Shown here one piece after another: positions 1 to 62,284 of a DNA stretch of 64,000 nucleotides (position 1 is the stretch's first letter; every line of letters begins with the position of its first letter). A program made the translations under genes and the position numbers. Under the pieces are notes generated by a model. That model was not told where the DNA came from and did no database searches. It was given only the letters and a program-made list of their open reading frames with translations. The stretch comes from Frigoribacterium sp. VKM Ac-2836 (GTDB taxonomy: Bacteria > Actinomycetota > Actinomycetes > Actinomycetales > Microbacteriaceae), in contig NZ_JABRPK010000004.1 in the NCBI RefSeq assembly GCF_013248995.1, positions 124,001-188,000 on the forward strand, written 5' to 3'.

Positions 1-299
1 TCCCCAGCTTCACCGCCCGGGTGTTCTCCGGTCCGCGCCTCCTCCGGTGCGAGTCGACACCTCGGCGTGACGGGGCTTCGGGGCACGTGCCGTCGTCGGA
101 CTGCCCGCCACGAAGGTCGCCCGTCACGAAGCCGGTACAGCTGTCCACCGCGCGGCACCCCGCCCCGCACGCATCCGGCGCGACCGTCTCGGTCGCCGTC
201 CGTCCGGGTCACCGAGCCTCTCGGTGCCCCGCGCAGCACCCACCGCCGACATGGCGGCACAGCACCGTCGACGTCCCGCGTCGACCACGAGGAGGAGCC
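1..299. other. Upstream region of the helicase gene, no gene seen
   Basis: The frame of the helicase stays open back to base 21, but its translation here is Arg/Pro/His-rich with no recognisable domain, and a dispersed repeat copy (34-43) lies in it, so I treat this stretch as non-coding leader. A purine-rich ribosome binding site (gaggagga, 288-295) ends it. Nothing else is recognisable. Confidence 0.5.
34..43 (-). repeat. Single copy of the AGGAGGCGCG dispersed repeat
   Basis: Exact CGCGCCTCCT on the + strand, upstream of the helicase gene; one of three unpaired intergenic copies in the window. Confidence 0.7.
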
Positions 300-2432
300 T
301 TGGCTCGACCAGGCCAGCGTCAATCGGGTGGCACCCGCACCGCCCAGCGTCCGAACCGTCGCCGCGAGGTCGACAACGACGGGCTGATCCCCGTCCTCGC
401 CCGCGCCGTGCGCGAGGTCGAGGCCGCCGCCCAACGTGGTCAGGTGAAGCCGTCGAGTCGGACCAAGTTCCAGGTCATCGCGTTGCTCATGCGAGAAGAG
501 CGGGCGCGGGTCAGGGTCGACAAGGCCATCAGCGAGTCCGAGCGAGCCGAGCAGATGAAGCGACTCGACGGGGTCGCCCAGATCCTCGCCAAGACCGCCG
601 CCCGCGACACGTCGCTGATCACCCTGCTGGGTGAGGCGGCGACCGTCAGCGAGGCCGCCCGGACCCTCAAGCGCGACATGCAGATGTCGGCCGGGCTCGA
701 GCTCGAACCCGAGCAGCAGATCATCGTCACCGAGGCCGCACCCGTGGCCGTGGCCTCCGACCGCCAGGTCGTACCGCAGTCGGTCGTCTCTCGTCAGCTC
801 GCGAACCCCTTCCTTCCGCCCGATTTCGCACTCGCCGAGGTCGCTCGCGAGGCGCACCCGCGTCGCCTCGCCAACTGGGAGCTCTTCGGTCCGCTGTTCA
901 AGTCGTTCGAATACGGCGCCGGCGGCGGCTCGGCCTGCATGCCGCTGCCCGAACCGACCACCGTCGACGCGCCCGCGGGCGCGACCCTCATGCACCACCA
1001 GGCTCAGCTCGTCGAGTCCGCCCGCCAGGGTCACCGCACCTACCTGCTCGCCGACGAGCCCGGCCTCGGCAAGACCGCGCAGGCTCTGCTCGCCGCTCAG
1101 GCGGCGGCCGCCTACCCGCTGCTCGTCGTCGTGCCCAACGTCGTCAAGACGAACTGGGCCCGCGAGGTGCAGTTGTGGACGCCGACGCGATCGGCGACCG
1201 TCATCCACGGTGACGGCGAGAAGCTCGACGCGTTCGCCGACGTCGTCATCGTCAACTACGAGGTGCTCGACCGTCACGTCGGCTGGCTCGGCGACCTCGG
1301 CTTCAAGGGCATGATCGTCGACGAGGCGCACTTCATCAAGAACAAAGAGTCGCAGCGCTCGCGCCACGTGCTGCAGCTCGCCCAGCGCATCCGCTCGCGC
1401 ACCGCCCACCCGCTGCTGATGGCGCTGACCGGCACCCCGCTGATCAACGACATCGAGGACTTCCGCGCCATCTGGGAGTTCTTGGGCTGGATCGGCGACA
1501 AGAAGCCGAACGCCGAGCTGATGGAACGCCTCGAAGACGTCGGGCTGACGCCCGCCGACCCCGGATTCTTCTCGTCGGCCCGCGAGATCGTCATCGACCT
1601 CGGCATCGTCCGTCGCAAGAAGGTGGACGTCGCCTCCGACATCCCCGCCCGCCGCATCGCCGACCTGCCCGTCGAACTCGACGACGAGGTGGGCCGCTCG
1701 ATCCGCGACGCCGAGCGCGAGCTCGCCCGCCGCATGGTGCAGAAGTACCGCACCGCGCTCACCACCCGCACGTCGGGCGTCCGGGTCGAGGGCATCGACC
1801 ACGATCTCGTCCGCCAGGTCGCCAAGTGGGAGCTCGAGGACGCCAGCGCGTCGAGCACGGGCGAGAACGTGTTCAGCATGGTGCGCCGCATCGGTCAGGC
1901 CAAGGCCGGCCTCGCCGCCGACTACACGGCGCAGCTGGCCCGCAACGTCGGCAAGGTCGTGTTCTTCGCCAAGCACATCGACGTCATGGACGTCGCCGAG
2001 GCCACGTTCGCCAAGCGAGGCATCAAGTACGCCTCGATCCGCGGCGACCAGACCCCGGCCGTCCGCCAGCGTCAGATCGATGCCTTCGTCAACGATCCCG
2101 ACGTCGAGGTCGTCGTCTGCTCGCTCACCGCGGCGGGTGTCGGGCTCAACCTGCAGGTCGCCTCGAACGTCGTGCTGGCCGAGCTGTCCTGGACCGACGC
2201 CGAGCAGACGCAGGCGATCGACCGCGTGCACCGCATCGGTCAGGCCGAGCCCGTCACCGCGTGGCGCGTCATCGCGGCACAGACGATCGACACGAAGATC
2301 GCCGAGCTGATCGACAGCAAGGCCGGTCTGGCCGCCCGTGCGCTCGACGGTGACGACTCCGAGGTCGTCGACTCCGTGGACGTCCAGCTCTCGGCCCTCG
2401 TCGCCCTGCTCACCGAGGCGCTCGAGGGCTGA
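300..2432 (+). CDS. SNF2-family DEAD/DEAH-box helicase/ATPase
   Basis: Predicted 710-residue ATP-dependent DNA translocase of the SNF2 class. The N-terminal ~200 residues match no domain I know. The helicase core follows: Walker A (DEPGLGKT, residues 252-259), DEAH box (341-344), a motif III-like LTGTP stretch, and a C-terminal helicase half ending in the SNF2 signature DRVHRIGQ (around residues 641-648). I start at TTG 300 because it has a strong ribosome binding site 5 bases upstream (288-295) and the protein becomes coding-like from there; a longer upstream start at 21 is possible but unlikely. It stands alone with no methylase or nuclease partner, so I give it no defence role. The exact function is unknown. 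Confidence 0.85.
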   Translation: MARPGQRQSGGTRTAQRPNRRREVDNDGLIPVLARAVREVEAAAQRGQVKPSSRTKFQVIALLMREERARVRVDKAISESERAEQMKRLDGVAQILAKTAARDTSLITLLGEAATVSEAARTLKRDMQMSAGLELEPEQQIIVTEAAPVAVASDRQVVPQSVVSRQLANPFLPPDFALAEVAREAHPRRLANWELFGPLFKSFEYGAGGGSACMPLPEPTTVDAPAGATLMHHQAQLVESARQGHRTYLLADEPGLGKTAQALLAAQAAAAYPLLVVVPNVVKTNWAREVQLWTPTRSATVIHGDGEKLDAFADVVIVNYEVLDRHVGWLGDLGFKGMIVDEAHFIKNKESQRSRHVLQLAQRIRSRTAHPLLMALTGTPLINDIEDFRAIWEFLGWIGDKKPNAELMERLEDVGLTPADPGFFSSAREIVIDLGIVRRKKVDVASDIPARRIADLPVELDDEVGRSIRDAERELARRMVQKYRTALTTRTSGVRVEGIDHDLVRQVAKWELEDASASSTGENVFSMVRRIGQAKAGLAADYTAQLARNVGKVVFFAKHIDVMDVAEATFAKRGIKYASIRGDQTPAVRQRQIDAFVNDPDVEVVVCSLTAAGVGLNLQVASNVVLAELSWTDAEQTQAIDRVHRIGQAEPVTAWRVIAAQTIDTKIAELIDSKAGLAARALDGDDSEVVDSVDVQLSALVALLTEALEG

Positions 2433-2482
2433 CCCGGCCCCCGTGTCACCCGGTCGACGGAGTCCCTCTCAGTCGAGGCGAG

Positions 2483-2513
2483 TTCGGTGGTCGGAGAACA
2501 CCCGACCACCGAA
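2483..2513. promoter_or_regulatory. Perfect 12-bp inverted repeat overlapping the VOC gene's ribosome binding site
   Basis: Arms 2483-2494 (TTCGGTGGTCGG) and 2502-2513, loop 2495-2501. The right arm runs into the ribosome binding site (GAAGGAG, 2511-2517) of the next gene. It could terminate helicase transcription, be an operator, or fold in the mRNA and mask the binding site; the sequence alone does not decide. Confidence 0.5.
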
Positions 2514-2523
2514 GGAGCACCTC

Positions 2524-2919
2524 ATGCCCGAACTCTCCGGCTACGCCCACGTCGCCATCACCGTCTCCGATCTCGACACCAGCCTCGCCTTCTACGAGAA
2601 GTTGCTCGGTGCCGGCCCCGTCGGCCGCATCGAGCTCGACGGCCTCGACCGCCGCATCTTCTCGGTCGGCAACGGGCAGATCCTCGGGGTCACGGCCTAC
2701 ACCGACGGATCGTCGGCGGTCTTCGACCCGACGGTCCCCGGGCTCGACCACATCGGTCTCGCCGTGACCGACCGCGACGGCGTCGTCGCCTGGCAGGAAC
2801 ACGCCACGTCGCTCGGCATCGAGTCCGACTTGCAGGACGCCGACTTCGGCCACGCCCTGATGATCAAGGACCCCGACGGCAACCAGATCGAGTTCTTCGC
2901 CCCGCCGGCCCAGAGCTGA
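2524..2919 (+). CDS. VOC-superfamily (glyoxalase/bleomycin-resistance-like) protein
   Basis: Small 131-residue protein with the paired beta-alpha-beta-beta-beta pattern of the vicinal oxygen chelate fold. Likely metal ligands are His9 (GYAHVAITV), His76 (GLDHIGLAV) and Glu123 (GNQIEFF), the usual VOC layout. The C-terminal DPDGNQIEFF stretch is typical of glyoxalase/dioxygenase-like members. The start has a good ribosome binding site (gaaggag). Family assignment is secure; the substrate (methylglyoxal adduct, antibiotic or aromatic compound) cannot be read from sequence. Confidence 0.85.
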   Translation: MPELSGYAHVAITVSDLDTSLAFYEKLLGAGPVGRIELDGLDRRIFSVGNGQILGVTAYTDGSSAVFDPTVPGLDHIGLAVTDRDGVVAWQEHATSLGIESDLQDADFGHALMIKDPDGNQIEFFAPPAQS

Positions 2920-3013
2920 CACGGGCCGCCCGACGGCATCACCGGGAGTTTCGTGCACCGCGCCCCGACGAGATCGGGTGTGCTGCACGACACGCGGTGA
3001 CGTGGTTCACCGC

Positions 3014-3040
3014 CTGAGGCCGCGGCCCGGGCGGCCTCAG
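3014..3040 (-). terminator. Possible terminator hairpin after the epimerase gene
   Basis: Inverted repeat with 9-bp arms CTGAGGCCG (3014-3022) and its complement (3032-3040), loop 3023-3031. The proximal arm overlaps the stop codon of the minus-strand epimerase gene. There is no T-run, as often in high-GC actinobacteria. Confidence 0.45.
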
Positions 3041-4077
3041 CGGTCGCGGGCGGCGGCGATCAGGTCGCGTTCGTCGCCTGGCGTCAACCCCGCACCGTGG
3101 GGGCCGACCGGGCCGGGACGCGAGAGCTCCCAGGCGAGGACGTCGCGCAACGTCTCGTGCACGGGGCGCGGAACGAGGCCCGCGGCCCGACCCGCGCCTC
3201 CTGCCCGGGCACCGAAGCCCGCGTGCGTGGTGACGGGCACCCAGAGCGGCAGCGACCGGGGCCCCGCCCAGGGCGCCACCTCGTGTGCCTCGAGCCAGGT
3301 CTCGTCGACGGGGACGACCTCGCCCGTGTGGCCGGTGATCTGTCGAGCAGCCGCCAGGTGATCGGTCAGGGACTGCCGGTCGCCCACGGCGTCGTATGTG
3401 CCCGAGAGGCCTCTCTCGACCGACGCCACGATCCAGGCCGACAGATCGCGCACGTCGACGGGCTGCACCTCGAGGCCCGGAACGTCGGGCACGAGCACGG
3501 GATCGGCGCCGGACGACCCGGCGCCCCCGGCGAAGCGGAGCGGCCACCACCCCGTGCGACCCGTGTGGTCACCCGGGCCGCCGATCAGCCCTGCCCGCAC
3601 GACCAGGGATCGGTCGACACCGAAGGTCTCGACGACGGCACGCTCACCGGCGACCTTGGACCCGCCGTAGTCCGACTCGTCGGCGTCGACGAGGGCGGCC
3701 GACTCGTCGGCCCCGGTCGTCGCGGTGTCGGCGTAGACGCTGACGCTCGACACGAACACGAAGGAGGCGCTGGCCGGCTCGAGCACCGCGACGGCCTCGC
3801 GGACGTGCGAGGCGTCGCGGCTCAGGTCGACCACCGCGTCCCAGCGCTGCCCGGTGGCCAGCACGGCGTCGTAGGCGCTGGGCGTGCCCCGGTCGGAGGC
3901 GACGAACCGTGCACCGTCGGGGACGGTGCCGGACGACCCGCGGGCGAGGCAGGTGACCTCGTGGCCCCGCGCGAGGGCGGCCGAGACGATCTCACCACCG
4001 AGCCACGCGGTCCCACCCAGCACGAGCAGGCGAAGGGCCGGGGGTGTCGCAGCGGACGAGACCGTCGCATCCGCCAC
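3037..4077 (-). CDS. NAD-dependent epimerase/dehydratase family protein
   Basis: 346-residue extended short-chain dehydrogenase. The N-terminal nucleotide-binding loop reads LVLGGTAWLGGE (GGTxxLG type), and a catalytic Tyr-Lys pair is visible in DYGGSKVAGE. The remainder resembles atypical extended SDRs acting on nucleotide sugars or isoflavone-like substrates; the substrate is not assignable. Start GTG 4077 lies 5 bases downstream of the mycoredoxin stop codon, so the two genes are almost certainly co-transcribed, mycoredoxin first. A dispersed repeat copy (3193-3202) sits inside the gene. Confidence 0.8.
   Translation of the reverse strand: MADATVSSAATPPALRLLVLGGTAWLGGEIVSAALARGHEVTCLARGSSGTVPDGARFVASDRGTPSAYDAVLATGQRWDAVVDLSRDASHVREAVAVLEPASASFVFVSSVSVYADTATTGADESAALVDADESDYGGSKVAGERAVVETFGVDRSLVVRAGLIGGPGDHTGRTGWWPLRFAGGAGSSGADPVLVPDVPGLEVQPVDVRDLSAWIVASVERGLSGTYDAVGDRQSLTDHLAAARQITGHTGEVVPVDETWLEAHEVAPWAGPRSLPLWVPVTTHAGFGARAGGAGRAAGLVPRPVHETLRDVLAWELSRPGPVGPHGAGLTPGDERDLIAAARDR
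3193..3202 (-). repeat. Dispersed repeat copy inside the epimerase gene
   Basis: Exact CGCGCCTCCT on the + strand, extended to the 12-mer CCGCGCCTCCTG (3192-3203). Read on the coding strand it encodes part of a Gly/Ala-rich C-terminal segment (AGGAGRA). Confidence 0.7.
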
Positions 4078-6204: not shown

Positions 6205-6247
6205 CCGCGCCTCCTGGTCCTCGCCCTCGGGGGATCAGGAGGCGCGG
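6205..6247. terminator. Inverted pair of the dispersed repeat, convergent gene end
   Basis: CCGCGCCTCCTG (6205-6216) and CAGGAGGCGCGG (6236-6247), a perfect 12-bp inverted repeat with a 19-base spacer. It lies 8 bases after the poxB stop and 40 bases before the end of the convergent maltokinase gene, where a bidirectional terminator is expected. Confidence 0.65.
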
Positions 6248-7718: not shown

Positions 7719-9329
7719 ATGAGCACCGCATCCCCCCGCCGCACCGAACAGACCGAGATCGAGCGCAAGTACGACGTCCACGAGAGCGCCCGCGTGCCCG
7801 ATCTGGTCGGTGCCGGCGGTGACGGCCACACCGAGGGGCTCGTCGTGGCCGCGGTCGAGCAGGACGACCCCGTCGAGCTCTCCGCGACCTACTGGGACAC
7901 CGTCGACCACGCCCTGCTCGGGGCCCGGACGACCCTCCGGAGGCGCGAGGGCGGTGGCGACGCCGGTTGGCACCTAAAGCTGCCGCCGTCGGTCGGCACG
8001 TCCGGTCGTCGCGAGGTGCACTGGCCGCTCGGCGAACCGGACGAGAGGGTGCCGGACTCCCTTCGTCGGCTGGTCGAGGCCCGGTTGCGTGGCCGGTCCG
8101 TGCATCCCGTCCTCCGTCTGGAGACGACACGCACGACCACCCGGCTGATCGACGGCTCGGGTCGCGACATGGCCGAGCTGGCCGACGACGTCGTGCGGGC
8201 GTCGAACCCCGACACCGCCGTGTTGCGCACCTGGCGCGAGTGGGAGGTCGAGCTGGCGCCAGGAGTCGACGGTGTCGAGGGCGAACGACTGCTCGACGCG
8301 GTCGCCGAGAGACTCGAGGCCGTCGGGGCGTCCGTGTCGTCGTCGAAGTCGAAGCTGGCCCGCGGGCTGGGCTCGGAGCCGGCCGGCGACGGTACCCCGG
8401 CGGACGGCGGCACGGACGGGCTCGACGCGTCCACGTCCTCGTCCGCCATCGCCCCGAAGAAGAGCTCGGCCGCGGCCTTCGTCGCGTCCGCCGCGGCGGG
8501 CCTGCGTGACGAGCTGCTGGCGGTCGACGCCGCCGTACGCGACGACGAGCCGGACGCGGTACGCCGGCTCCGGACGGCGATGCGCCGTCTGCGCGCTCTG
8601 CTGACGGTGTGGGACGGTGTCCTCGACCCCGGGCTGGCCGCGACCGTCGTGGCGGGTGCCGCCCACGTCGGCCACGTGTCGGGGGCCGCTCGCGACGTCG
8701 AGGTGGGCCGGGGCCGGGTGGCGACCCGCGCCTCCTCGGCTCCGGCGGGCTTCGTGGCCGTCCAGGCCACGGGGCGGCTCGACGCCTGGCTCGGCGAACG
8801 CCTCGGCGAGGCCGTCGGTGACCTGCGGCGCCTGCTCGATTCGGGGGCCTGGTTCGACCTGCTGGACGCAGTGGACGCGCTCGTCGCGGCTCCGGCGACG
8901 GGGGAGCATGCGGCGGATCCGGCGGCCGAGCTCTCGGCGGCGAGGCTGCGGGCAGAGCGGAAGCGGACGAAGCGGGCCGTCCGGGCGGGGCTCGCGGCCC
9001 TCGACGCAACGGATCTCCAGAGCGGAGCGGACGCGGTCCCGGCCCTCGACGACGCCAGGAAGGCCGCGCGGCGGCTGCGGTACGCCCTCGAGGCCGACCG
9101 GCCCCGCGGCGGGTCCGGTCGCGGCCGTGCACGCCGGGCCGAGGCTGTGCAGGACGCCCTCGGCGAGCACCGGGACGCCCTGGCCGCGGTGCGGACGGTG
9201 CGCGAGGTCGCGGCGTTCGCCCACCGGTCCGGCGAGGACTCGTTCGGCTACGGCGTGCTGGCGACCCTCGAGACGAGGCGGGCCGAGAAGGCCCTCCGCC
9301 GCTTCCGCCGGGCTGCCCGACGACTCTGA
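7719..9329 (+). CDS. CYTH and CHAD domain-containing protein
   Basis: 536-residue protein with an N-terminal CYTH domain (EIERKY, residues 13-18, the metal/triphosphate-binding signature; followed by YWDTVDHALL and TTLRRREGG) and a C-terminal CHAD domain (from about residue 265, rich in Arg/His helices such as VRRLRTAMRRLRALL and DARKAARRLRYALE). CYTH proteins hydrolyse inorganic or organic triphosphates and CHAD helices bind polyphosphate, so a role in polyphosphate metabolism or granule association is likely. Start ATG 7719 has GGAGG only 2 bases away, an unusually short spacing. A dispersed repeat copy (8727-8736) encodes Thr-Arg-Ala-Ser-Ser at the domain junction side. Confidence 0.85.
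   Translation: MSTASPRRTEQTEIERKYDVHESARVPDLVGAGGDGHTEGLVVAAVEQDDPVELSATYWDTVDHALLGARTTLRRREGGGDAGWHLKLPPSVGTSGRREVHWPLGEPDERVPDSLRRLVEARLRGRSVHPVLRLETTRTTTRLIDGSGRDMAELADDVVRASNPDTAVLRTWREWEVELAPGVDGVEGERLLDAVAERLEAVGASVSSSKSKLARGLGSEPAGDGTPADGGTDGLDASTSSSAIAPKKSSAAAFVASAAAGLRDELLAVDAAVRDDEPDAVRRLRTAMRRLRALLTVWDGVLDPGLAATVVAGAAHVGHVSGAARDVEVGRGRVATRASSAPAGFVAVQATGRLDAWLGERLGEAVGDLRRLLDSGAWFDLLDAVDALVAAPATGEHAADPAAELSAARLRAERKRTKRAVRAGLAALDATDLQSGADAVPALDDARKAARRLRYALEADRPRGGSGRGRARRAEAVQDALGEHRDALAAVRTVREVAAFAHRSGEDSFGYGVLATLETRRAEKALRRFRRAARRL
8727..8736 (-). repeat. Dispersed repeat copy inside the CYTH-CHAD gene
   Basis: Exact CGCGCCTCCT on the + strand, read as Thr-Arg-Ala-Ser-Ser, the same peptide and frame as the copy inside miaB. 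Confidence 0.7.
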
Positions 9330-9606: not shown

Positions 9607-9999
9607 TCAGGGGGCTCGGCGGGCGAGCAGTGCTTGCAGCTTGCGGACGGTGGCGTCGTTGCGGGCCGTGACCGGGGTCGGCAGTCCGCGCCACCAGGCG
9701 GCGGGCACCCGCGAGGAGAGGACGCCCGCCGGGAGCCACTGGTAGACGACGTCGGGCGAGACGACCAGTTCTTCGTCGCCCAGGTCGACGTCAGGAGGCG
9801 CGACCCCGCCGAGTGCGCCTGGCACCTCGGCGAACGCCACCGACAGCAGCTTCGGCTCGCGACCCCCGCGGCCGTCGGGCGCGTCGTCGCGGAGCGGGTT
9901 CTCGTCGGCCAGACGGGCGGCCACCTGACGCAGGTCGGCCATGGCCACGCGCTTGGCCGTGCCGACGTTGACGCCCCGCAGCAGCGCGACGTGGTCCAC
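9607..9999 (-). CDS. DUF1697 family protein, apparently shortened internally
   Basis: 130 residues. It opens with the family's conserved HVALLRGVNVGT...VAMADLRQV and closes with the family's C-terminal pattern (LYxWxPxGV.. then TPVTARNDATVRKLQALL). Family members I know are about 175-180 residues and carry a conserved middle around TYIQSGNVVF that is absent here: MADLRQV is followed almost at once by AARLADENPLRDD, which in relatives lies some 50-60 residues later. This looks like an in-frame internal deletion. Function of the family is unknown. Start GTG 9999 is 5 bases after the upstream protease stop, so the gene is probably last in a minus-strand operon. Confidence 0.7.
   Translation of the reverse strand: MDHVALLRGVNVGTAKRVAMADLRQVAARLADENPLRDDAPDGRGGREPKLLSVAFAEVPGALGGVAPPDVDLGDEELVVSPDVVYQWLPAGVLSSRVPAAWWRGLPTPVTARNDATVRKLQALLARRAP
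9793..9802 (+). repeat. Dispersed repeat copy inside the DUF1697 gene
   Basis: Exact AGGAGGCGCG on the + strand in the context TCAGGAGGCGCGACC, identical over 15 bases to the copy in the antiporter gene; coding strand reads Val-Ala-Pro-Pro-Asp. Confidence 0.7.
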
Positions 10000-12427: not shown

Positions 12428-12437
12428 CGCGCCTCCT
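12428..12437 (-). repeat. Single intergenic copy of the dispersed repeat
   Basis: Exact CGCGCCTCCT on the + strand in the 61-bp gap between two minus-strand genes. Confidence 0.7.
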
Positions 12438-16183: not shown

Positions 16184-17932
16184 TCACGACCTCGTGCTCG
16201 TGAAGGCCGAGGTGTCCATGGCGAGCTCTTCGGCGTCCAGGCCGAGCAGCACGCGTCTCATGACCTCTTCGTCGAGGGCGCCGGCATCACGCTCGCGCAG
16301 CACCACCTCGCGTCGTTTGGCGAGCAGTTCGCGCCGGATCGAGCCGAGGGCCTGGGGTGCGGCACGACGGCGCGCGCGCTGGGCGGCGGTCGCCCCCGAG
16401 ACGTCCCGTTCGTCGGCGTCGTCGAGGGCCGTGCGCTGCAGCGCCTCGTTCTGGCGCAACAGCCTCGTCGTCGAGAGCTGGACGGCGCGCTCGGTGAGCT
16501 CCGGCCCCCAGCGCTTCTCCCAGTCGGCACGACGCTCGTCGACGTACGCCATGGTCTCGTCGGTGCTCGTCGCGAAGATCGCCAGCTCGGCGGCGAGGTC
16601 GCGATCGTGTTGGGTGTCGTCGCGGACGCCGAGCACCCTGATGACGAACGGCAGCGTGAGCCCCTGCAGCAACAGGGTGCCGACCGTGACGATGAACGCG
16701 ATGAGGAACATGGTGTCGCGCGCCGGCACGGGGATGCTCGACTCGGTGATCGCCGGGATCGACACGGCGGCGGCGAGGGTGACCACGCCCCTCATGCCGG
16801 TCCACGAGATGACGCTCAGCTGTCGCCAGTCCATGCGAGGCTGCGGGTGGTAGCGCACCGTCCGCAGGGCCGGTGCCCTGCGGAGTCGGCGGAGGACGGG
16901 CACGCGCCGGAGCTTCCTCAGCACCGGCGAGAGGAACAGGTACCGGCCGGCCCGGGCCGCGTAGTACGTGCCGAACACGAAGACCGGCCGCACGAGGACG
17001 ACCACGGCCAGGACCGCGAGGGCGACGCCGACGCTCTGCCCGAGGCCGCGCTCGCTCTCGCTGACGTCGAGGACGACGGCTCGCAGCTGCAGGCCGATCA
17101 GCGCGAAGACGAAGCCCTCGAGCACGACGTCGGCGGCGGACCAGAACGGACGCTCCTGCAGGCGGGTCGCGTAGCCCGTCCGGGGTGAGTTGAAGCCGAC
17201 GTACAACCCGGCGGCCACGACCGCGAGCACCCCGGAGCCGTTCAGCTCTTCTGCGGCGATGTAGGCGATGAACGGCAACAGCAGACCGATGACGTTCTCG
17301 ACGACGGGGTCGTCGATGCGAATGCGCACACGGTGGGCGACGAAGCCGAGGGCCAGACCCACTGCCACGCCGACACCGATCGCGAGGCCGAAGATGCCGA
17401 GGTCGTCCCACAGTGTGAGGCTCGCGCCGCCCACGATCGCCAGGAACACCTTGACCAGGGTGAGCGACGCGGCGTCGTTGATCAGGCTCTCGCCCGACAG
17501 CACGGTCATCACCTTGCGCGGCAGCCCGAGCTTGCGGCCGATGGCGGCTGCCGACACGGCGTCAGGAGGCGCGACCACCGCCCCGACGAGCAGTGCGGCC
17601 GGCAGGGTCATGTCGGGGATCATCACGTAGGCGACGGCCCCGACGGCGAACGCCGTGACGACCACGGCCCCCACGCCCAGTCGTGCGATCTGGACCCGGC
17701 TCTCGCGGAAGTTCAGCAGGGAGACGTCGAGCGCCGCCGAGTAGAGCAGTGGCGGGAGGACGACGGTCAGGATGACCTCGGAGTCGATCTCGATGTCGGG
17801 CACGCCGGGGATCAGCGAGACGAGCAGGGCGACGCCCACCGTCAGGAGCGGGGCGGGCAGCCCGCGCCACCGGGCGAAGGCGGTCACGACGAGCGACCCG
17901 GTCAGGATGATCAGCAGCTCGCCGAGGTTCAT
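16184..17932 (-). CDS. CPA1-family Na+/H+ antiporter
   Basis: 582-residue cation:proton antiporter with about 12 membrane helices (residues 4-420). The conserved VVAPPDAVSAAAIGRKLGLP and GESLINDAASL motifs, carrying the ion-translocating acidic residues, identify it. A basic cytoplasmic loop between helices holds three imperfect 9-residue repeats (VLRKLRRVP, VLRRLRRAP, ALRTVRYHP; 16844-16924). The C-terminal ~140 residues are a helical soluble tail. Start ATG 17932 is chosen over an upstream GTG-initiated extension because it begins the first helix. Na+, K+ or Li+ preference cannot be told. Confidence 0.85.
   Translation of the reverse strand: MNLGELLIILTGSLVVTAFARWRGLPAPLLTVGVALLVSLIPGVPDIEIDSEVILTVVLPPLLYSAALDVSLLNFRESRVQIARLGVGAVVVTAFAVGAVAYVMIPDMTLPAALLVGAVVAPPDAVSAAAIGRKLGLPRKVMTVLSGESLINDAASLTLVKVFLAIVGGASLTLWDDLGIFGLAIGVGVAVGLALGFVAHRVRIRIDDPVVENVIGLLLPFIAYIAAEELNGSGVLAVVAAGLYVGFNSPRTGYATRLQERPFWSAADVVLEGFVFALIGLQLRAVVLDVSESERGLGQSVGVALAVLAVVVLVRPVFVFGTYYAARAGRYLFLSPVLRKLRRVPVLRRLRRAPALRTVRYHPQPRMDWRQLSVISWTGMRGVVTLAAAVSIPAITESSIPVPARDTMFLIAFIVTVGTLLLQGLTLPFVIRVLGVRDDTQHDRDLAAELAIFATSTDETMAYVDERRADWEKRWGPELTERAVQLSTTRLLRQNEALQRTALDDADERDVSGATAAQRARRRAAPQALGSIRRELLAKRREVVLRERDAGALDEEVMRRVLLGLDAEELAMDTSAFTSTRS
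17564..17573 (+). repeat. Dispersed repeat copy inside the antiporter gene
   Basis: Exact AGGAGGCGCG on the + strand; on the coding strand it encodes the conserved Val-Ala-Pro-Pro-Asp of the CPA1 signature. Confidence 0.7.
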
Positions 17933-21296: not shown

Positions 21297-21306
21297 CGCG
21301 CCTCCT
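21297..21306 (-). repeat. Single intergenic copy of the dispersed repeat
   Basis: Exact CGCGCCTCCT on the + strand, in the longer match ACCGCGCCTCCTG (21295-21307), between the small membrane protein gene and aspA. Confidence 0.7.
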
Positions 21307-22930: not shown

Positions 22931-22970
22931 CAGGAGGCGCGGTGCCGGTCGACCGGCACCGCGCCTCCTG
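22931..22970. terminator. 40-bp perfect palindrome built from two dispersed repeat copies
   Basis: Two 20-base arms (22931-22950 and 22951-22970) are exact complements with no spacer, each beginning or ending with the repeat core CAGGAGGCGCGG. It lies between the convergent ends of aspA and the brkB-like gene, so bidirectional termination is plausible. Confidence 0.7.
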
Positions 22971-25656: not shown

Positions 25657-27000
25657 TCAGGGCGTCGGCGCCTCGGCGTCGTAGCGTCCGAACGCGGGGG
25701 TCAGCCGGGCCACGAGTGCGACGAGCGCCACGACGAGCAGCCCGCCCAGCAGGGGAGGCCAGAACACCGCGATCCCGGCGACGAGCCCGACGAACAGGTC
25801 GCCCACCCGGGGCCCGCCCGTGACCACCACGATGAAGATGCCCTGCAGGCGCCCCCGCATCGCGTCCGGTGCGGCCGATTGGAGGATGGTGGAGCGGAAG
25901 ATCGAGCTGACGTTGTCGCTCGCACCGGCTCCGGCCAGGGCGAGGGCCGCCCCGCCGAGGGCGACGAGGTTCGCCTGGTCGAGGCCTGCCGTGACGGCGC
26001 CGCCGTGGGCCGGCGTCACGAGCAGCACCACGCCGAACGCCGCGATGCAGAGTCCGTAGGCGGTGATCGCCCACCGCACGGCGACACCTTGTCGCCGGAC
26101 GTGGCCGAGGCGGCCCGAGAAGACGCTGCTCAACAGCGCCCCGACCGCGAACGAGGCGGAGAGGACGCCGACCGTCACCGCGCCTCCTCCGATGACGAGC
26201 GTGCCGACCACCGGGTAGAGCACGCGGGGCATCCCGAAGGTCATGGCGACGATGTCCATGACGAAGGTGGTCCGGATGTTCGGTGACCGCTTCAGGAACG
26301 CCAGCCCGAAGCGCAACGACTCCAGCCCCGGACGCTGTGTCTCGCCCTCCGGCCGGATCGGGGGCAGGGTGACGATGCCGAGGAACGCCGTCGAGAACAG
26401 CACCACGTCGACCGTGTAGGTCAGCGGGAACCCCACGCTCGCGACCAGCACGCCTGCCAGCGCGGGTCCGACGGTCAGCATCAGGCCCATGCTGATGCCG
26501 CTCAGCGCGGAGGCGGCCGGCAACAGCTCGCGGGGCAGGAGGCGCGGCACGATCGAGGCGCGCGAGGTCGCGATCATCGTGCCCGCCACGGCGTTGACCG
26601 TGGTCAGCAGGTAGAGCAGCCACACCTCGTGCAGCCCGAGGTAGGCGTGCAGCGCGATCGCCGCCGTCGAGAGCCAGGCGAAGACCGCGGCGACGAGCGC
26701 GACCTTCCGTCGGTCGAAGGCGTCGGCGAGCATGCCGCCGTAGAGCCCGGCCAGGATCATCGGCACGAGCGACACGACACCGACCAGGGCGACGGCGAAG
26801 GTCGAGCGGGTGATCTCGAAGATCTCGAGACCGACGGCGACGAGCGTCAGCTGCGTCCCGATGCCGCTGATCGCGCTGCCCGCGAACAGGCGGGCGAAGG
26901 CGGGGCTGGTGCGGAGCGGGGTGACGTCGACGAACAGCGGGCGACGGACCGGCGGCGCAGGGCGGGGCGACGGCGGTGGCGGAGGCGGGGTGGCGGTCAA
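25657..27000 (-). CDS. MFS transporter, EntS/MFS_3-like
   Basis: 447-residue major facilitator with 12 predicted helices. GMLADAFDRRKV between helices 2 and 3 is the MFS loop signature, and PLRTSPAFARLFAGSAISGIG and RASIVPRLLPRELLPAASAL are typical of the EntS-type group that exports siderophores or drugs. The start is uncertain: TTG 27000 gives a normal-length protein, whereas ATG 27132 would add 44 low-complexity residues. Two dispersed repeat copies lie inside. It is divergent from the FKBP gene. Confidence 0.8.
   Translation of the reverse strand: MTATPPPPPPSPRPAPPVRRPLFVDVTPLRTSPAFARLFAGSAISGIGTQLTLVAVGLEIFEITRSTFAVALVGVVSLVPMILAGLYGGMLADAFDRRKVALVAAVFAWLSTAAIALHAYLGLHEVWLLYLLTTVNAVAGTMIATSRASIVPRLLPRELLPAASALSGISMGLMLTVGPALAGVLVASVGFPLTYTVDVVLFSTAFLGIVTLPPIRPEGETQRPGLESLRFGLAFLKRSPNIRTTFVMDIVAMTFGMPRVLYPVVGTLVIGGGAVTVGVLSASFAVGALLSSVFSGRLGHVRRQGVAVRWAITAYGLCIAAFGVVLLVTPAHGGAVTAGLDQANLVALGGAALALAGAGASDNVSSIFRSTILQSAAPDAMRGRLQGIFIVVVTGGPRVGDLFVGLVAGIAVFWPPLLGGLLVVALVALVARLTPAFGRYDAEAPTP
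26179..26188 (-). repeat. Dispersed repeat copy inside the MFS gene
   Basis: Exact CGCGCCTCCT on the + strand; coding strand reads Gly-Gly-Gly-Ala. Confidence 0.7.
26537..26546 (+). repeat. Dispersed repeat copy inside the MFS gene
   Basis: Exact AGGAGGCGCG, part of the 12-mer CAGGAGGCGCGG (26536-26547); coding strand reads Pro-Arg-Leu-Leu, a different frame from the other copy in this gene. Confidence 0.7.
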
Positions 27001-27239: not shown

Positions 27240-27614
27240 ATGACTCACGACCCCCAGACCAAGCCCGAGATCGACGCCCCGACCGGCCCCGCCCCCACCG
27301 AGCTCGAGGTCACCGACGTGACCACCGGTGACGGCGCCGAGGCCCAGTCCGGCTCCACCGTCAACGTCCACTACCTCGGCGTCGAATACGACTCCGGCGA
27401 GGAGTTCGACTCGTCGTGGAGCCGCGGCGAGGCGATCAACTTCCCGCTGCAGGCCCTGGTCCGCGGCTGGCAGGAGGGCATCCCGGGCATGAAGGTCGGC
27501 GGACGCCGCCAGCTCGTCGTGCCGCCCCACCTGGCCTACGGCCCCGCCGGTGGCGGACACCCGCTCTCGGGCAAGACCCTCATCTTCGTCATCGACCTGC
27601 TCGGCGTCAGCTGA
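27240..27614 (+). CDS. FKBP-type peptidyl-prolyl cis-trans isomerase
   Basis: 124-residue cytosolic single-domain FKBP. Catalytic-pocket residues are visible: VNVHYLGVEYDSGEEFDSSW, FPLQALVRGWQEGIPGMKVGGRR and PPHLAYGP. It speeds proline isomerisation in folding proteins. An in-frame ATG three codons earlier (27231) is an alternative start. The aldo/keto reductase gene overlaps its stop by one base. Confidence 0.88.
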   Translation: MTHDPQTKPEIDAPTGPAPTELEVTDVTTGDGAEAQSGSTVNVHYLGVEYDSGEEFDSSWSRGEAINFPLQALVRGWQEGIPGMKVGGRRQLVVPPHLAYGPAGGGHPLSGKTLIFVIDLLGVS

Positions 27615-28447
27615 TGTCGGCCGCCCCCTCGGTCGGCCTCAACGACGGGCGCACGCTGCCCCAGCTCGGCCTCGGCACCTACGGGCTGAACGGCGACGAG
27701 GGCACGGCGCAGGTCGTCCAGGCGATCTCGTCGGGTTACCGTCTGCTCGACACGGCGCTGAACTACGGCAACGAGGCGGCGGTCGGGGCGGCGATCCGTC
27801 AGAGCGAGGTGCCGCGCGAGGACCTGGTCGTCACGACGAAGCTCCCGGGCCGGCACCACGGCTACGACGCGACCTTGTCGAGCTTCGACGAGAGCCGGGC
27901 GAACCTCGGCCTCGACTTCGTCGACCTGTACCTGATCCACTGGCCCTTGCCCCGCGTCGACAAGTACGTCGAGACGTTCAAGGCATTCGTCAGGCTGCAA
28001 GAAGACGGGCTCGTCGGGTCGGTCGGCGTCTCGAACTTCACGGCCGAGCACCTGCAGCGAGTCGCCGATGAGACGGGCGTGGTGCCGGCGGTCAACCAGA
28101 TCGAGCTGCACCCGTACTTCCCCCAGGCCGAGCTGCGCGCCGTGCACGAGAGCATGGGCGTCGTCACCGAGAGCTGGAGCCCCCTCGCGAAGCAGAGTGA
28201 ACTGCTCCAGGAGGCGCGGGTCACCGAGATCGCGCGCGCCCACGGCAAGACGCCCACCCAGGTCGTCCTGCGCTGGCACGTGCAGCTCGGTGCGGTGCCC
28301 GTGCCGAAGTCGGCCGACGCAGGCCGTCAGCGGGAGAACCTCGACGTCTTCGACTTCGAGCTCACACCCGACGAGGTCGAGTCGCTCAGCGGCCTCGAGC
28401 GCGGTCGCCTGTGGGACGGCGACCCGCTGACCCACGAGGAGTTCTAG
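27614..28447 (+). CDS. Aldo/keto reductase (2,5-diketo-D-gluconate reductase-like)
   Basis: 277-residue NADPH-dependent reductase with the TIM-barrel catalytic tetrad: Asp in LLDTALNYGNE with the Tyr, Lys in VTTKLPG and His in LIHWPLP. The cofactor region VPKSADAGRQRENLDVFDFEL is standard. Its ATG overlaps the FKBP stop codon (TGATG), so the two are translationally coupled. Substrates of this class are broad aldehydes and ketones. A dispersed repeat copy (28209-28218) encodes Gln-Glu-Ala-Arg. Confidence 0.88.
   Translation: MSAAPSVGLNDGRTLPQLGLGTYGLNGDEGTAQVVQAISSGYRLLDTALNYGNEAAVGAAIRQSEVPREDLVVTTKLPGRHHGYDATLSSFDESRANLGLDFVDLYLIHWPLPRVDKYVETFKAFVRLQEDGLVGSVGVSNFTAEHLQRVADETGVVPAVNQIELHPYFPQAELRAVHESMGVVTESWSPLAKQSELLQEARVTEIARAHGKTPTQVVLRWHVQLGAVPVPKSADAGRQRENLDVFDFELTPDEVESLSGLERGRLWDGDPLTHEEF
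28209..28218 (+). repeat. Dispersed repeat copy inside the aldo/keto reductase gene
   Basis: Exact AGGAGGCGCG in CAGGAGGCGCGG (28208-28219), read as Gln-Glu-Ala-Arg. Confidence 0.7.
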
Positions 28448-28470: not shown

Positions 28471-28512
28471 CAGGAGGCGCGCCCGTCCCGCCGAGGACGG
28501 GCGCGCCTCCTG
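28471..28512 (+). terminator. Inverted pair of the dispersed repeat, 18-bp perfect stem
   Basis: Arms 28471-28488 and 28495-28512 are exact complements with a 6-base loop (CGCCGA). It lies 24 bases after the aldo/keto reductase stop and before the co-oriented HelD-like gene. A strong GC hairpin, without T-run. Confidence 0.7.
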
Positions 28513-33056: not shown

Positions 33057-33596
33057 ATGACCGTCACCGATGCCTCCTCGTTCGTCGACAGCAAGATCGC
33101 CGTCGTCCCCGACTTCCCCAAGCCCGGCATCCTCTTCCGTGACGTCACGCCGCTCTTCTCCGACGCGGACGCCTTCGCCACCGTGACCACGGCCCTCTCC
33201 GAGCCGTTCGACGGCGGGTTCGTCGCCGTCGCCGGCATCGAGGCGCGGGGCTTCGCGCTCGCCGGGGCCATCGCGATCGAGCAGGGCGTCGGCGTGCTCA
33301 CGGTGCGCAAGGCGGGCAAGCTCCCCGGCGAGGTGCTCAGCGAGAGCTACGCCCTCGAGTACGGCGAGGCCACGCTCGAACTGCGTCCGAACCAGATCCC
33401 CGCGGGGTCGAGCGTCCTCATCGTCGACGACGTGCTCGCGACCGGCGGCACGGTCGAGGCGACCATCACCCTGCTCGAACGAGCAGGTTACGTCGTGGCC
33501 GGCGTCGCGGTGCTGCTCGAACTCGACGGTCTCGACGGCCGGGCCCGCCTCGAGGGTCATGTCCCCGTGCACGCCCTCTCGTCCGCCCCCGCCTGA
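33057..33596 (+). CDS. apt: Adenine phosphoribosyltransferase
   Basis: 179-residue type I phosphoribosyltransferase: adenine + PRPP to AMP + PPi, purine salvage in the cytosol. The PRPP-binding loop VLIVDDVLATGGT and the family N-terminus VPDFPKPGILFRDVTPL are intact, as is GIEARGFALAGA. Length matches the family. The usual actinobacterial neighbours relA/secDF are not in view. Confidence 0.93.
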   Translation: MTVTDASSFVDSKIAVVPDFPKPGILFRDVTPLFSDADAFATVTTALSEPFDGGFVAVAGIEARGFALAGAIAIEQGVGVLTVRKAGKLPGEVLSESYALEYGEATLELRPNQIPAGSSVLIVDDVLATGGTVEATITLLERAGYVVAGVAVLLELDGLDGRARLEGHVPVHALSSAPA

Positions 33597-34861: not shown

Positions 34862-34899
34862 AGGAGGCGCGGTGTACGCGGTCGCGCACCGCGCCTCCT
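34862..34899. repeat. Inverted pair of the dispersed repeat between divergent genes
   Basis: AGGAGGCGCGGTG (34862-34874) and its exact complement (34887-34899), spacer of 12. Unlike the other three pairs it lies between the starts of two divergent genes (34850 on minus, 34998 on plus), where no transcript should end. Confidence 0.75.
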
Positions 34900-45899: not shown

Positions 45900-46805
45900 T
45901 CAGAGGGCGTCGACGAACGCCGACAGGGCGTCCTCGACCGTCCGGTGTCGGAACACGAAGCCGTCGCGTTCGAGGGCCTCGGGCACGACCTGCTGACTGG
46001 GCAGCAGCATCTCCCGGCCGGCTTCTTGCATGGCCGTCGAGATGACGACCTCGGGCACGCCCAACAAGTAGGGGCGGTGCAGGTCAGAGGCCAGGGTCCG
46101 CGTGACGAGGTCGCTCGTCGCCGGTGTGGGCCCGACCAGGTTCACGGGTCCCGCCACGGACGACGTGAGAAGATGCACGATCGCGGCGGCTTCGTCATGC
46201 AGGCTGATCCAGGGCCAGAACTGGTCGCCGGTGCCGAGTCGTGAACCGAACCCCAGCTTGGTCAGGGGCAGCAGCGGCTTGAGCGCGCCTCCTCCGGGTC
46301 CGATCACGATCCCGGTCCGCAGCGTGACCACGCGTGTGGCCTCCGGGGCCTTGTCGGCGGCGGCCTCCCAGGCGACGACGACGTCGCTGAGGAACCCCTC
46401 GCCCCGGCCGCTCGCCTCGGTCAACCGCTCGCCGGGACGGTCGCCGTAGACGCCGACGGCCGAGCCGCTGAGGAACGTCGCGGGTGCCTTCGAAGCCGCC
46501 CTCATGCCGTCGACCAGCGTCGACGTCGCGGCCAGGCGTGACTCGAGGATGTCGCGCTTGTACCCGGCCGTCCACGGCAGACGACCCAAGGAGGCGCCGG
46601 CCAGGTTCACGACGGCGTCCGCGCGGGCGATCAGGTCGTGGTCGACGATGCCGGCACTCGGGACCCAGGTGTACTCGTCCTCGGCGCGGGGTTCGTGACG
46701 GACCAGGGAGAGCGGACGGTGGCCGGCCGCACGCAGCTGGCGGGTCAGTTCGGACCCGATCATGCCGCTGGCGCCGGAGATCAGGACGGTGAGTGCGTCG
46801 GTCAT
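45900..46805 (-). CDS. TIGR01777-type epimerase (DUF1731)
   Basis: 301-residue short-chain-dehydrogenase-like protein. N-terminal ISGASGMIGSEL is the dinucleotide-binding loop; DAVVNLAGASLGRLPWTAGYKRDILESR and LSGSAVGVYGDR are hallmarks of the TIGR01777 family, with the DUF1731 helical C-terminus (PEVVISTAMQEAGREMLLPSQQVVPEAL, in parts). Substrate unknown; distantly linked to cell-division inhibitor SulA-annotated proteins in older databases, which is not a proven role. A dispersed repeat copy lies inside. Confidence 0.85.
   Translation of the reverse strand: MTDALTVLISGASGMIGSELTRQLRAAGHRPLSLVRHEPRAEDEYTWVPSAGIVDHDLIARADAVVNLAGASLGRLPWTAGYKRDILESRLAATSTLVDGMRAASKAPATFLSGSAVGVYGDRPGERLTEASGRGEGFLSDVVVAWEAAADKAPEATRVVTLRTGIVIGPGGGALKPLLPLTKLGFGSRLGTGDQFWPWISLHDEAAAIVHLLTSSVAGPVNLVGPTPATSDLVTRTLASDLHRPYLLGVPEVVISTAMQEAGREMLLPSQQVVPEALERDGFVFRHRTVEDALSAFVDAL
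46284..46293 (-). repeat. Dispersed repeat copy inside the TIGR01777 epimerase gene
   Basis: Exact CGCGCCTCCT on the + strand; coding strand reads Gly-Gly-Gly-Ala. One of only two exact copies beyond 35 kb. Confidence 0.7.
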
Positions 46806-58246: not shown

Positions 58247-58258
58247 CCTCGTTCGAGG

Positions 58259-58264
58259 TACCCT
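58259..58264 (+). promoter_or_regulatory. Leaderless-type -10 box of the DUF3046 gene
   Basis: TACCCT, 6 bases before ATG 58271 and only 13 bases after the clgR terminator hairpin. Confidence 0.5.
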
Positions 58265-58270
58265 CGTCTG

Positions 58271-58495
58271 ATGCGAAAGAGCGAGTTCGCCCGAGCCGTC
58301 GAGGACGAGTTCGGAGAAGCTTACGGCCGGGTGCTCATCCGAGACCTGGTCATCCAGTCGCTCGGTGACCGGACCGCCGACCAAGCCATCGCCCAGGGCG
58401 AGTCGCCTCGCGACGTGTGGCTGGCGCTCTGCGAGGCCGAGGGCGTCCCGGTCTCCCGTCGTCACGGTGTCGGGCTGCCCGAACCGACGAGCTGA
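58271..58495 (+). CDS. DUF3046 family protein
   Basis: 74 residues. The family pattern SEFxxxVEDEFGEAYGRVL...GDRTADQAI...PRDVWLALCEAEGVP is clear. DUF3046 genes sit between clgR and recA across actinobacteria; function unknown. Not part of the recA transcript, since an SOS box and promoter follow. Confidence 0.85.
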   Translation: MRKSEFARAVEDEFGEAYGRVLIRDLVIQSLGDRTADQAIAQGESPRDVWLALCEAEGVPVSRRHGVGLPEPTS

Positions 58496-58789
58496 GGCGT
58501 CGCTCGCTCGCGTGTGTGTTCGACACGCCGAGACCGATGGGTCGAACACGTGTTCGGACGGATGGTAGCGTCCTCCACAAGGACGTAGACGATCGAGTTC
58601 TGCACGTCGGGCCGCCACCGCCACCGCGATGTCGGAGGTGGCCCGTAGCGTTTCTCGCATCGACGTCCCGCGTCACCGGCACATGCCGGCGACACCAGCC
58701 TTGTCGTAGCGACGACGACCCTGCACCACCGGTCGGCGTCGACGCGACAGCCTATAGGCGCACGGACGACCACCACGAAGGAGAACGAC
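58496..58789 (+). promoter_or_regulatory. recA control region and long leader
   Basis: 294 bases without a gene. It holds the SOS box (58543-58556), a TAGCGT -10 box (58566-58571) and then a ~210-base leader that ends with a cgaaggaga ribosome binding site. No stable long hairpin is evident by eye in the leader. Confidence 0.6.
58543..58556. promoter_or_regulatory. LexA (SOS) box of recA
   Basis: CGAACACGTGTTCG, a perfect palindrome fitting the actinobacterial/Gram-positive consensus CGAACRNNYGTTCG. It overlaps the -35 position of the TAGCGT promoter, so LexA would block polymerase binding. Confidence 0.85.
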
Positions 58790-59847
<1,058 letters not shown>

Positions 59848-59851
<4 letters not shown>

Positions 59852-60669
59852 CCTCGCACGACGACGACGCCCCGGTGTCGGGTCCGTCCGATGAGGACGC
59901 CGACACCGGGCGACTCGCGCCCGTCACGCGCCTGTTCGGCGGCGAACGTGATTCACGGGACGCCGAGGCGACGGGCAGGTCGTCATCGCCTGATGGTTTG
60001 GCTCAGGGTGCCGAGGCCGTACTGACGGCCATCAGTGCCCATTGGGGCGAGCGATCAGCAGTCTCGGCTTCCGAGGCCGGCCATCCTTCCGTTCGGGCTT
60101 CACGGGCCGGGGCCGCTGGCCGACCCAAGGCGTCCGGTCTGGGCGATGAGCCGGACGACGGGCCCGAAGACCTCGAGGCGCAGCAGCGGCGCGCCGAGAA
60201 CGTCAGTCTGCATGCCCTCTCGCGTCGAGGCGTGTCCTCTCACGAGATGGAGAAGCTCCTGCTCTCACGCGACCTCGACGCGTCGGTCGTGGCCGACGAG
60301 ATCGCGCGACTCGAGAGGGTCGGTCTGCTCGACGACACCGAACTGGCCGCCATGCTGATCCGATCGAAGCAAGAGCGCAAAGGTCTCGGCCGGGGTGCCG
60401 TGACGTCCGAACTACGGGCCCGGGGCATCGACCCGTCGGTCATCGACGAGGCCCTGTCCGACACCGACGACGACGAAGAGCAAGAACGGGCCGACGAGTG
60501 GGCACGCAAGCGGGCCGGCTCGTTGCGCGGCCTCGACCGCGAGACCGCCGAGCGCCGTCTCAACGGGTACCTGATGCGTCGGGGGTACCGTTCCGAGGTC
60601 GTGCGCCGTGCGATCGAGAAGGCCCTACCCCGTGGGGGCAGCGGCCGAGGCGGTGTGCGCTTCGAGTGA
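59848..60669 (+). CDS. recX: Regulatory protein RecX
   Basis: 273 residues; binds and restrains RecA filaments. The RecX three-helix repeats are in the C-terminal half ([68 protein letters not shown]). The N-terminal ~110 residues are disordered and acidic/Ser-rich, longer than in most RecX proteins. Translationally coupled to recA. Confidence 0.93.
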
Positions 60670-60692
60670 CCGTCTCATGGGTGGTGTCGATC

Positions 60693-60698
60693 TACACT
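60693..60698 (+). promoter_or_regulatory. Leaderless-type -10 box of miaB
   Basis: TACACT, 8 bases before ATG 60707. Confidence 0.5.
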
Positions 60699-60706
60699 GA
60701 ATCACC

Positions 60707-62284
60707 ATGACGACGGTCGCCACCCCTCCTGACCTCTCGCCCGTCGATGACCGGGCCCGTACCTACGAAGTGCGCACCTTCGGGTGTCAGATGAACGTCC
60801 ACGACTCGGAGCGTCTCAGTGGTTCGCTCGAGGCGGCCGGTTACGTCCCCGCCGACGGGGCCGAGGCAGACATCGTCGTCATCAACACCTGTGCGGTCCG
60901 AGAGAACGCCGACAAGAAGTTGTACGGGACGCTGGGCACGCTCGCGGGTCGGAAGAAGAAGCACGAAGGTATGCAGATCGCCGTCGGCGGGTGCCTGGCC
61001 CAGAAAGACAAGGCCGTCATCCTCGACAAGGCTCCCTGGGTCGACGTGGTCTTCGGCACGCACAACATGGGTGCCCTGCCCACACTGCTCGAACGAGCAC
61101 GCCACAACGACGAGGCCCAGCTCGAGATCCTCGAGTCCCTCGACGTGTTCCCCTCGACCCTGCCGACCAAACGCGACTCGACCCACAGCGGTTGGGTCTC
61201 CATCTCGGTCGGCTGCAACAACACCTGCACCTTCTGCATCGTGCCGTCACTCCGGGGCAAGGAGAAAGACCGCCGACCCGGCGACATCCTGGCCGAGGTT
61301 CAGGCATTGGTCGACGACGGTGCCGTCGAGGTGACGCTGCTGGGGCAGAACGTCAACTCGTACGGTGTCGAGTTCGGTGACCGCTTCGCCTTCGGCAAGT
61401 TGCTGCGTGCCGTCGGAACGATCTCCGGGCTCGAACGGATTCGGTTCACGAGCCCCCACCCGGCGTCCTTCACCGATGACGTCATCGCCGCGATGGCCGA
61501 GACCCCCGCGGTCATGCCGCAGTTGCACATGCCCCTGCAGTCGGGTTCCGACCGAGTGCTGCGAGCCATGCGGCGCAGCTACCGTAGCGAGAGATTCCTC
61601 GGCATCATCGACCGTGTGCGTTCGGCCATGCCAGAGGCCGCCATCAGCACGGACATCATCGTCGGTTTCCCTGGCGAGACCGAAGAGGACTTCGCCGAGA
61701 CCCTCCGGGTGGTGGAGCAATCGCGGTTCGCGTCCGCGTTCACCTTCCAGTACTCGGTACGCCCCGGGACGCCCGCGGGCGAGATGGCCGACCAGATCCC
61801 GAAGGCCGTCGTGCAAGAACGGTTCGAGCGGCTCACGGCCCTGCAGGACCGCATCTCCGCCGAAGAGAACCGTCGGCAGATCGGCCGGACGGTCGAGGTT
61901 CTCGTGGCCACCGACGAGGGCAGGAAGGACGCCTCCACCCACCGTCTGTCGGGGCGTGCGGAAGACAGTCGTCTCGTCCACTTCGAGGTCCCGACGGCGC
62001 GCCCGGTTCCGCGCCCCGGCGATGTCGTCCGCGTGCGGGTCACCGACGCCGCGCCGTTCTACCTCCTCGCCGATGCGGTCGACGGCCTGGAGCCCGTGTA
62101 CGAAGTCCGTCGCACGCGCGCGGGTGACGCCTGGGACGCCGCGCAGGCCACCTCGTGCGGGGCGCCGTCCGAGTCCGGCGCGACCCGCGCCTCCTCGGGT
62201 CGACCCTCGAGGGTGAGCCTCGGTCTGCCCACGCTGCGGGTGGCGACGACTCCCATCTACAGCACGACCGACGACCTCCGCTGA
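60707..62284 (+). CDS. miaB: tRNA-2-methylthio-N6-dimethylallyladenosine synthase
   Basis: 525 residues; radical-SAM methylthiotransferase modifying A37 of tRNAs. N-terminal UPF0004 domain with Cys in [29 protein letters not shown] and GGCLAQ; radical-SAM cluster Cys170-Cys174-Cys177 in [16 protein letters not shown]-terminal TRAM domain (about 385-450). The last ~70 residues are an extension rich in Ala/Ser/Arg that holds a dispersed repeat copy. miaA starts one base after the stop. Confidence 0.95.
62186..62195 (-). repeat. Dispersed repeat copy in the miaB C-terminal extension
   Basis: Exact CGCGCCTCCT on the + strand, within a 14-base match ACCCGCGCCTCCTC shared with the CYTH-CHAD gene copy; encodes Thr-Arg-Ala-Ser-Ser. 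Confidence 0.7.

Follow-up and report, generated by a model that had tools for sequence, protein, structure and literature searches.

Why does a single ten-base word, AGGAGGCGCG, recur on both strands, inside as well as between genes, throughout 64,000 nucleotides of the genome of Frigoribacterium sp. VKM Ac-2836 (Microbacteriaceae; assembly of 3.27 Mb, here G000)? The stretch analysed (G000:C5:124001-188000, hereafter the window) has a guanine plus cytosine (GC) content of 70.4%; its genes were called with our own small gene finder, and the start positions are approximate. As judged from comparisons of genome sequences, the word is probably a self-DNA uptake sequence of the genus Frigoribacterium. 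The original prediction, which was made from the letters of the window, had listed 20 exact copies, and all 20 were found at exactly these starts (8 on the plus and 12 on the minus strand; Table 1). It had put the chance number at about one; 0.66 copies are expected from independent bases and 0.43 from a third-order Markov model. AGGAGGCGCG has the highest z-score among the 10-mers of the window, and the probability of at least 20 copies at an expectation of 0.43 is approximately 1e-26. The nine copies assigned to genes do lie within called genes, on either strand and in various frames. Of three further sites reported to match in nine of ten bases, 37133 and 46589 were confirmed; 30546 does not match as printed, the 9-of-10 match beginning one base before.

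Ten more sites in the window deviate at base 1 only (CGGAGGCGCG, seven; GGGAGGCGCG, three), and CAGGAGGCGCGG occurs eight times. The consensus is A, less often C or G, followed by GGAGGCGCG. In 400 kb of contig C1, the next base is G in 111 of 152 copies, and the extension past the word is weak (G at base 11, C at base 14).

The original prediction had named two contrary outcomes, a genome-wide frequency close to the Markov expectation and an equal frequency in unrelated high-GC genomes. Neither was observed. The genome contains 1214 exact copies (595 forward, 619 reverse; approximately one per 2.7 kb) compared to 18 of the reversed control word, and few copies are found elsewhere. In the 400 kb of C1, 152 copies stand against a Markov expectation of 2.9; single-base variants are strongly raised there at bases 1 and 10 and are near or below chance at the other eight. 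All 16 Frigoribacterium genomes carry between 513 and 1570 exact copies (reversed control 10 to 51). The form that begins with C or G coexists with the A form in every one of them (454 to 1219 copies per genome) and is favoured over it in two (G199, 1154 vs 513; G032, 1219 vs 730). In a scan of 199 genomes of the family, five Frigoribacterium genomes had 730 to 1214 copies and the maximum of the 194 others was 216 (G051). Among 248 genomes of the phylum, the highest count in the 247 others was 122; five of these others also belong to the family set. The word is thus restricted to the genus within the genomes sampled. G051 was considered as a neighbouring dialect (216 vs 75 for the control genome-wide) and rejected, as 140 kb of it held three copies with 2.0 expected; presumably its 216 copies are concentrated outside the 140 kb sampled.

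The check for strand bias that had been proposed gave 79 plus and 73 minus copies in the 400 kb of C1, with all eight 50-kb bins near even. Contig C5 is likewise without strand polarity in 30-kb bins; polarity was judged by these bins, the replication origin not having been located. The word is found within genes in 95 of the 152 copies of C1 (sense and antisense) and in 38 of the 76 of C5. The remaining 57 copies of C1 are intergenic, and intergenic DNA is enriched in the word 3.2-fold in C1 and 5.3-fold in C5. Five of the six possible frame and strand classes are used by the genic copies of C1, and the sixth is represented by one copy. The spacing along C1, determined after merging close pairs, is more even than random (coefficient of variation 0.77 vs 0.99, P 0.001).

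Four pairs of copies in the window, which the original prediction had not mentioned, are inverted repeats 28-31 bp apart (6206/6237, 22932/22960, 28472/28502, and 34862/34890). They fold as hairpins with free energies of -42.7 to -56.5 kcal/mol (z -5.2 to -9.6). The stems of close pairs have the word in common, and the spacers look unrelated by eye. Three of these hairpins are located directly 3' of genes. The one at 34862/34890 precedes a called start by 11 nt, so not all hairpins would be terminators unless this gene call is wrong. Close pairs (<80 bp) were also in excess on a larger scale, with 14 in C1 (4.6 expected) and nine in C5 (2.1 expected). All 23 are inverted, where 6.7 close pairs of any kind were expected.

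The comparison of copy positions among sister genomes, also suggested originally, was carried out for a 214-kb block of G000 and three mutually non-independent sisters (G203, G205, and G206; identity 0.895-0.915), using nearby control 10-mers matched in GC content and codon phase. The word is conserved well above these controls. Genic copies were retained exactly in 29/37, 27/36, and 28/34 cases (matched 10-mers 0.35, 0.32, and 0.43, respectively), and intergenic copies in 29/34, 32/37, and 33/33 (0.35, 0.34, and 0.41). From the 38 copies of each class, 1, 2, and 4 genic and 4, 1, and 5 intergenic ones were dropped for incomplete gap-free alignment. In the opposite direction, 8/83, 10/83, and 10/88 sister copies were unaligned in G000, and a further 2/83 of G203 fell on an indel. 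Identity within the word reached 0.966 in genic and 0.989 in intergenic copies, compared to 0.892 and 0.868 in the flanks. Conservation extends to third codon positions, 340 of 363 (0.937) being identical within the word vs 2784 of 3471 (0.802) in the flanks.

Genic copies are gained and lost through substitution in place. Several intergenic sites lie in alignment gaps, which allowed no verdict on gain or loss, and G201 was excluded from the multi-genome alignment because of a broken contig. At window position 33108, seven genomes have GGAAGTCGGG and five have AGGAGGCGCG; these five make up two groups of overall similarity. The four-base change common to both groups looks like recombinational transfer, with shared retention as a possible alternative. 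Recombination-borne transfer has been proposed for DNA uptake sequences (PMC2397512). Site patterns in four genomes back three topologies (2804, 1358, and 1246 sites), and agreement between neighbouring sites is near baseline beyond approximately 100-300 bp. This conflict is weak evidence of frequent recombination, as homoplasy would fit it too.

One low-GC stretch of G203, whose assembly is a single contig, is devoid of the exact word. C1:2200001-2463234 spans at least 263 kb with a GC content of 0.68 and holds no exact copy, where approximately 102 would be expected at the genome mean; DNA of normal density directly adjoins it. By eye, some of its genes resemble those of a single-strand binding protein and of the alpha subunit of DNA polymerase III, and 2393200-2398589 looks like another pilus cluster. 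Its GC content, size, and gene content suggest that this one stretch is probably acquired DNA. In line with this, G203, the largest genome in the genus sample at 3.7 Mb, has 1435 copies, hardly more than the 1422 of G202 with 3.3 Mb.

Genes of a putative uptake route are present in all genomes of the genus sample. A ComEC profile finds a match in each of the 16. The comEA gene precedes comEC. The ATPase of the Tad pilus (TadA) scores above the family cut-off in all 16 as well. In G000, tadA is followed by TadB/C-, Flp-, and TadE-like genes (by eye); these neighbours are recognizable in 14 sisters, the last (TadE-like) gene not being found in two. In contig C1 of G000, the comEC frame has no stop before a HolA domain (delta of DNA polymerase III), giving 1156 amino acids as called (L189:10797-14267), which is either a fusion or an artefact of gene calling.

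Taken together, the hairpin pairs, the even spacing, the lack of strand polarity, and the conservation relative to the flanks shift the balance toward a signal like an uptake sequence, and so do the absence of the exact word from the G203 stretch, the shift at base 1, and the occurrence of both ComEC and TadA in every one of the 16 genomes. Competent cells would bind double-stranded DNA carrying the word by a component of a surface pilus, for which the Tad/Flp pilus is the likeliest candidate. One strand would then enter through ComEA/ComEC and recombine with the chromosome. Preferred uptake of tagged fragments would let the word accumulate, and this bias together with recombination would maintain it across the core genome, where it would settle in either orientation where coding permits and between genes as inverted hairpin pairs. 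Competence, preferential uptake, and a receptor are in this scheme predicted properties of the genus.

Several observations weigh against an uptake function. The 15.9 kb between the copies at 46284 and 62186 of the window lack an exact copy, though fully alignable to G203, and contain two GGGAGGCGCG. In the G203 stretch without the exact word, the C/G form occurs 14 times, where approximately 49 would follow from the genome mean and approximately 7 from the reversed control. Between G000 and the three sisters, no 1-kb window was at least 99% identical, that is, recent recombination tracts were not found; windows with the motif were no more similar (0.910, n=59) than those without (0.915, n=155). 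The genes themselves discriminate little, since 10 of 14 control genomes, among them Escherichia coli, match the ComEC profile too and 52 of 90 genomes of the family have a type IV pilin motif. The combination of tad with comEA/EC is frequent in actinobacteria, according to PMC4322843. Type IV pili are the known or proposed readers of uptake sequences, and a type IV PilC was found in 13 of the 16 genomes. They seem to be lacking in G200, G204, and G209, where PilC has no match and the weak matches to PilB/PilT shown by the remaining 13 do not occur; these three genomes still hold 1204, 1249, and 1492 copies. A literature search for Frigoribacterium and competence returned nothing on DNA uptake in titles and opening lines of abstracts, and one joining Microbacteriaceae and uptake sequence gave no match.

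The identity of the putative reader was approached by elimination. Type IV pili as the only reader were the first candidate and were dropped because of the three genomes without PilC. A type IVa pilus locus comes after rpoC both in G000 (G000:C3:478001-498000, L188) and in G032, with rpsL next in G000 (by eye); the G000 locus encodes PilB, PilT, PilC, PilM, a pilin, and a prepilin peptidase by profile, and PilN and PilO by position only. Its minor pilin was rejected as a conserved receptor, being too variable (35-72% identity in 12 sisters) and lacking altogether in three of the 16 genomes. A comparison of the net charges of the pilus and Com proteins yielded no receptor candidate. Since G200, G204, and G209 keep the word apparently without type IV pili, the reader of a putative uptake signal is more likely to be part of the Tad system, which is required for transformation of Micrococcus luteus (PMC4322843).

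Other functions were weighed against the same data. The original prediction had compared the word to the DNA uptake sequences of Pasteurellaceae and Neisseriaceae, a resemblance that is now supported, and had called a nucleoid-protein, methylation, or chromosome-organizing signal equally possible; these alternatives now carry lower weight. A nucleoid or chromosome-organizing signal would be the intracellular site of a genus-specific DNA-binding protein in packing or segregation. The high and rather even density, the conservation of the word itself, and its restriction to one genus in the sample would suit this explanation, which we consider unlikely nonetheless: words that orient segregation are strand-polar, unlike the near-even 50-kb bins observed here, the inverted hairpin pairs with unrelated spacers have no evident reason, and the 263 kb of G203 without an exact copy would stay unorganized. 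A Chi-like recombination signal, recognized by a nuclease of the RecBCD, AddAB, or AdnAB type in break repair, would also be short, abundant, asymmetric, conserved in the core genome, and absent from one probably acquired stretch. Known Chi words are polarized along replichores, in contrast to the balanced strands of C1, and inverted orientation in 23 of 23 close pairs is not predicted, which renders this function quite improbable.

That the word consists solely of transcription terminators or of a mobile palindrome is suggested by the four hairpins, the 14 close inverted pairs of C1, and the intergenic enrichment, as is known from repetitive extragenic palindromes (REP) and bacterial interspersed mosaic elements with their intergenic hairpins. 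Yet half or more of the copies are genic, and the single genic copies largely refute this possibility. Furthermore, the hairpins share the word and not the spacers, genic copies arise and vanish by substitution in place, and REP-like words of other genera are entirely intergenic in 20-kb stretches (10/10, 11/11, and 7/7). We therefore regard it as very improbable, and the same holds for recognition of the word by a DNA methylase or restriction system, since restriction sites are not usually kept as high-copy asymmetric words of ten bases. A by-product of composition or coding might be sought in the ideal Shine-Dalgarno word AGGAGG, in arginine and alanine codons, or in mutation bias, given the 70% GC of the window. 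Only 3 of 152 copies in C1 and 3 of 76 in C5 occupy a ribosome-binding position (3-14 nt upstream of start codons), the Markov model accounts for 2.9 of the 152 copies, and the word is scarce in high-GC relatives and missing from 263 kb of a sister genome. Its probability is negligible, and we consider it already refuted.

Table 1. Exact copies of AGGAGGCGCG in the window, with strand and surroundings
Position	Strand	Context
34..43	-	Outside called genes, window edge
3193..3202	-	Within epimerase-family gene 3037-4023 (-)
6206..6215	-	Hairpin left arm, between convergent genes
6237..6246	+	Right arm of hairpin begun at 6206
8727..8736	-	Antisense within CYTH/CHAD gene 7719-9329 (+)
9793..9802	+	Antisense within called gene 9607-9999 (-)
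12428..12437	-	Intergenic
17564..17573	+	Antisense within Na/H exchanger gene 16184-17932 (-); base 1 differs between sisters
21297..21306	-	Intergenic, upstream of fumC
22932..22941	+	Left arm of near-perfect palindrome between fumC and BrkB-family gene
22960..22969	-	Right arm of fumC/BrkB palindrome begun at 22932
26179..26188	-	Within major facilitator superfamily (MFS) gene 25657-27000 (-); exact in 11 of the 14 genomes aligned, the remaining three with a single mismatch
26537..26546	+	Within MFS gene 25657-27000 (-), opposite strand
28209..28218	+	Within aldo/keto reductase gene 27614-28447 (+)
28472..28481	+	Hairpin left arm, 24 nt past called gene end
28502..28511	-	Right arm of hairpin begun at 28472
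34862..34871	+	Hairpin left arm, between divergently called genes
34890..34899	-	Right arm of hairpin begun at 34862
46284..46293	-	Within called gene 45900-46805 (-)
62186..62195	-	Antisense within called gene 60791-62284 (+)

From 16 further genomes of the family, 17 stretches of 20 kb were surveyed for comparable words together with four loci of named relatives, considering the top four words of each. No genic 10-mer was similarly enriched, and some intergenic arrays were seen; weaker signals would escape this survey. The 8-mer CGGCATCC is raised in four other genera (L191, L194, L202, and L205), mostly within genes and in both orientations, and the 9-mer GCGGCATCC occurs 13 times in L194 with 1.0 expected. 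The GGTTTCGAGAC word of G008 (L195) is clustered, intergenic in 10 of 10 copies, and embedded in a longer common sequence, that is, REP-like. In Frondihabitans sp. PhB188 (L106), the palindrome GCCGAWTCGGC is likewise clustered and intergenic in 11 of 11 copies.

To our knowledge, genomic uptake words are established only in Neisseriaceae and Pasteurellaceae, and none from actinobacteria was among the matches listed in the literature on uptake words and competence, as judged by titles and the beginnings of abstracts. We lean, with slightly better than even confidence, toward the view that sequence-specific self-DNA uptake evolved again in a monoderm actinobacterium, with a Tad/Flp instead of a type IVa reader, and shaped the genomes of a whole genus. 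If true, this would provide an independent Gram-positive case, in which selection for conspecific DNA could be tested against a by-product of receptor bias. Natural competence would then be expected of a genus that lives on leaves, and the clade without type IV pili would make the identity of the reader directly testable.

Most genomic features of the uptake sequences of both families recur in Frigoribacterium one by one. The uptake signal sequences of Pasteurellaceae are similarly dense in the genome, evenly spaced, and arranged in terminator-like pairs; the Frigoribacterium word differs by the lack of AT-rich flanking tracts, by its weak extension, and by the phylum. Micrococcus luteus, which is transformed by means of Tad/Flp, belongs to the same phylum and resembles Frigoribacterium in TadA and ComEA/ComEC, with Flp- and TadE-like neighbours in the latter; it differs in that a term search of PMC4322843 did not retrieve 'uptake sequence'. 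Compared to the DNA uptake sequences of Neisseriaceae, which are read by the minor pilin ComP, the word and the phylum are different, type IV pili are apparently dispensable for the upkeep of the Frigoribacterium word, and no ComP-like reader was singled out. The neisserial sequences resemble it as high-copy words of ten bases in genic and intergenic DNA that form inverted hairpin pairs and are conserved to about 97-99% in the core; they are also missing from acquired DNA and vary in single bases between species. For published DNA uptake sequences, PMC2397512 and PMC3630211 report inverted pairs, an identity of 97% vs about 85%, and absence from recently acquired genes. The excess of C and G at base 1 in G199 and G032 recalls the dialects of Neisseriaceae, as outlined in PMC3630211.

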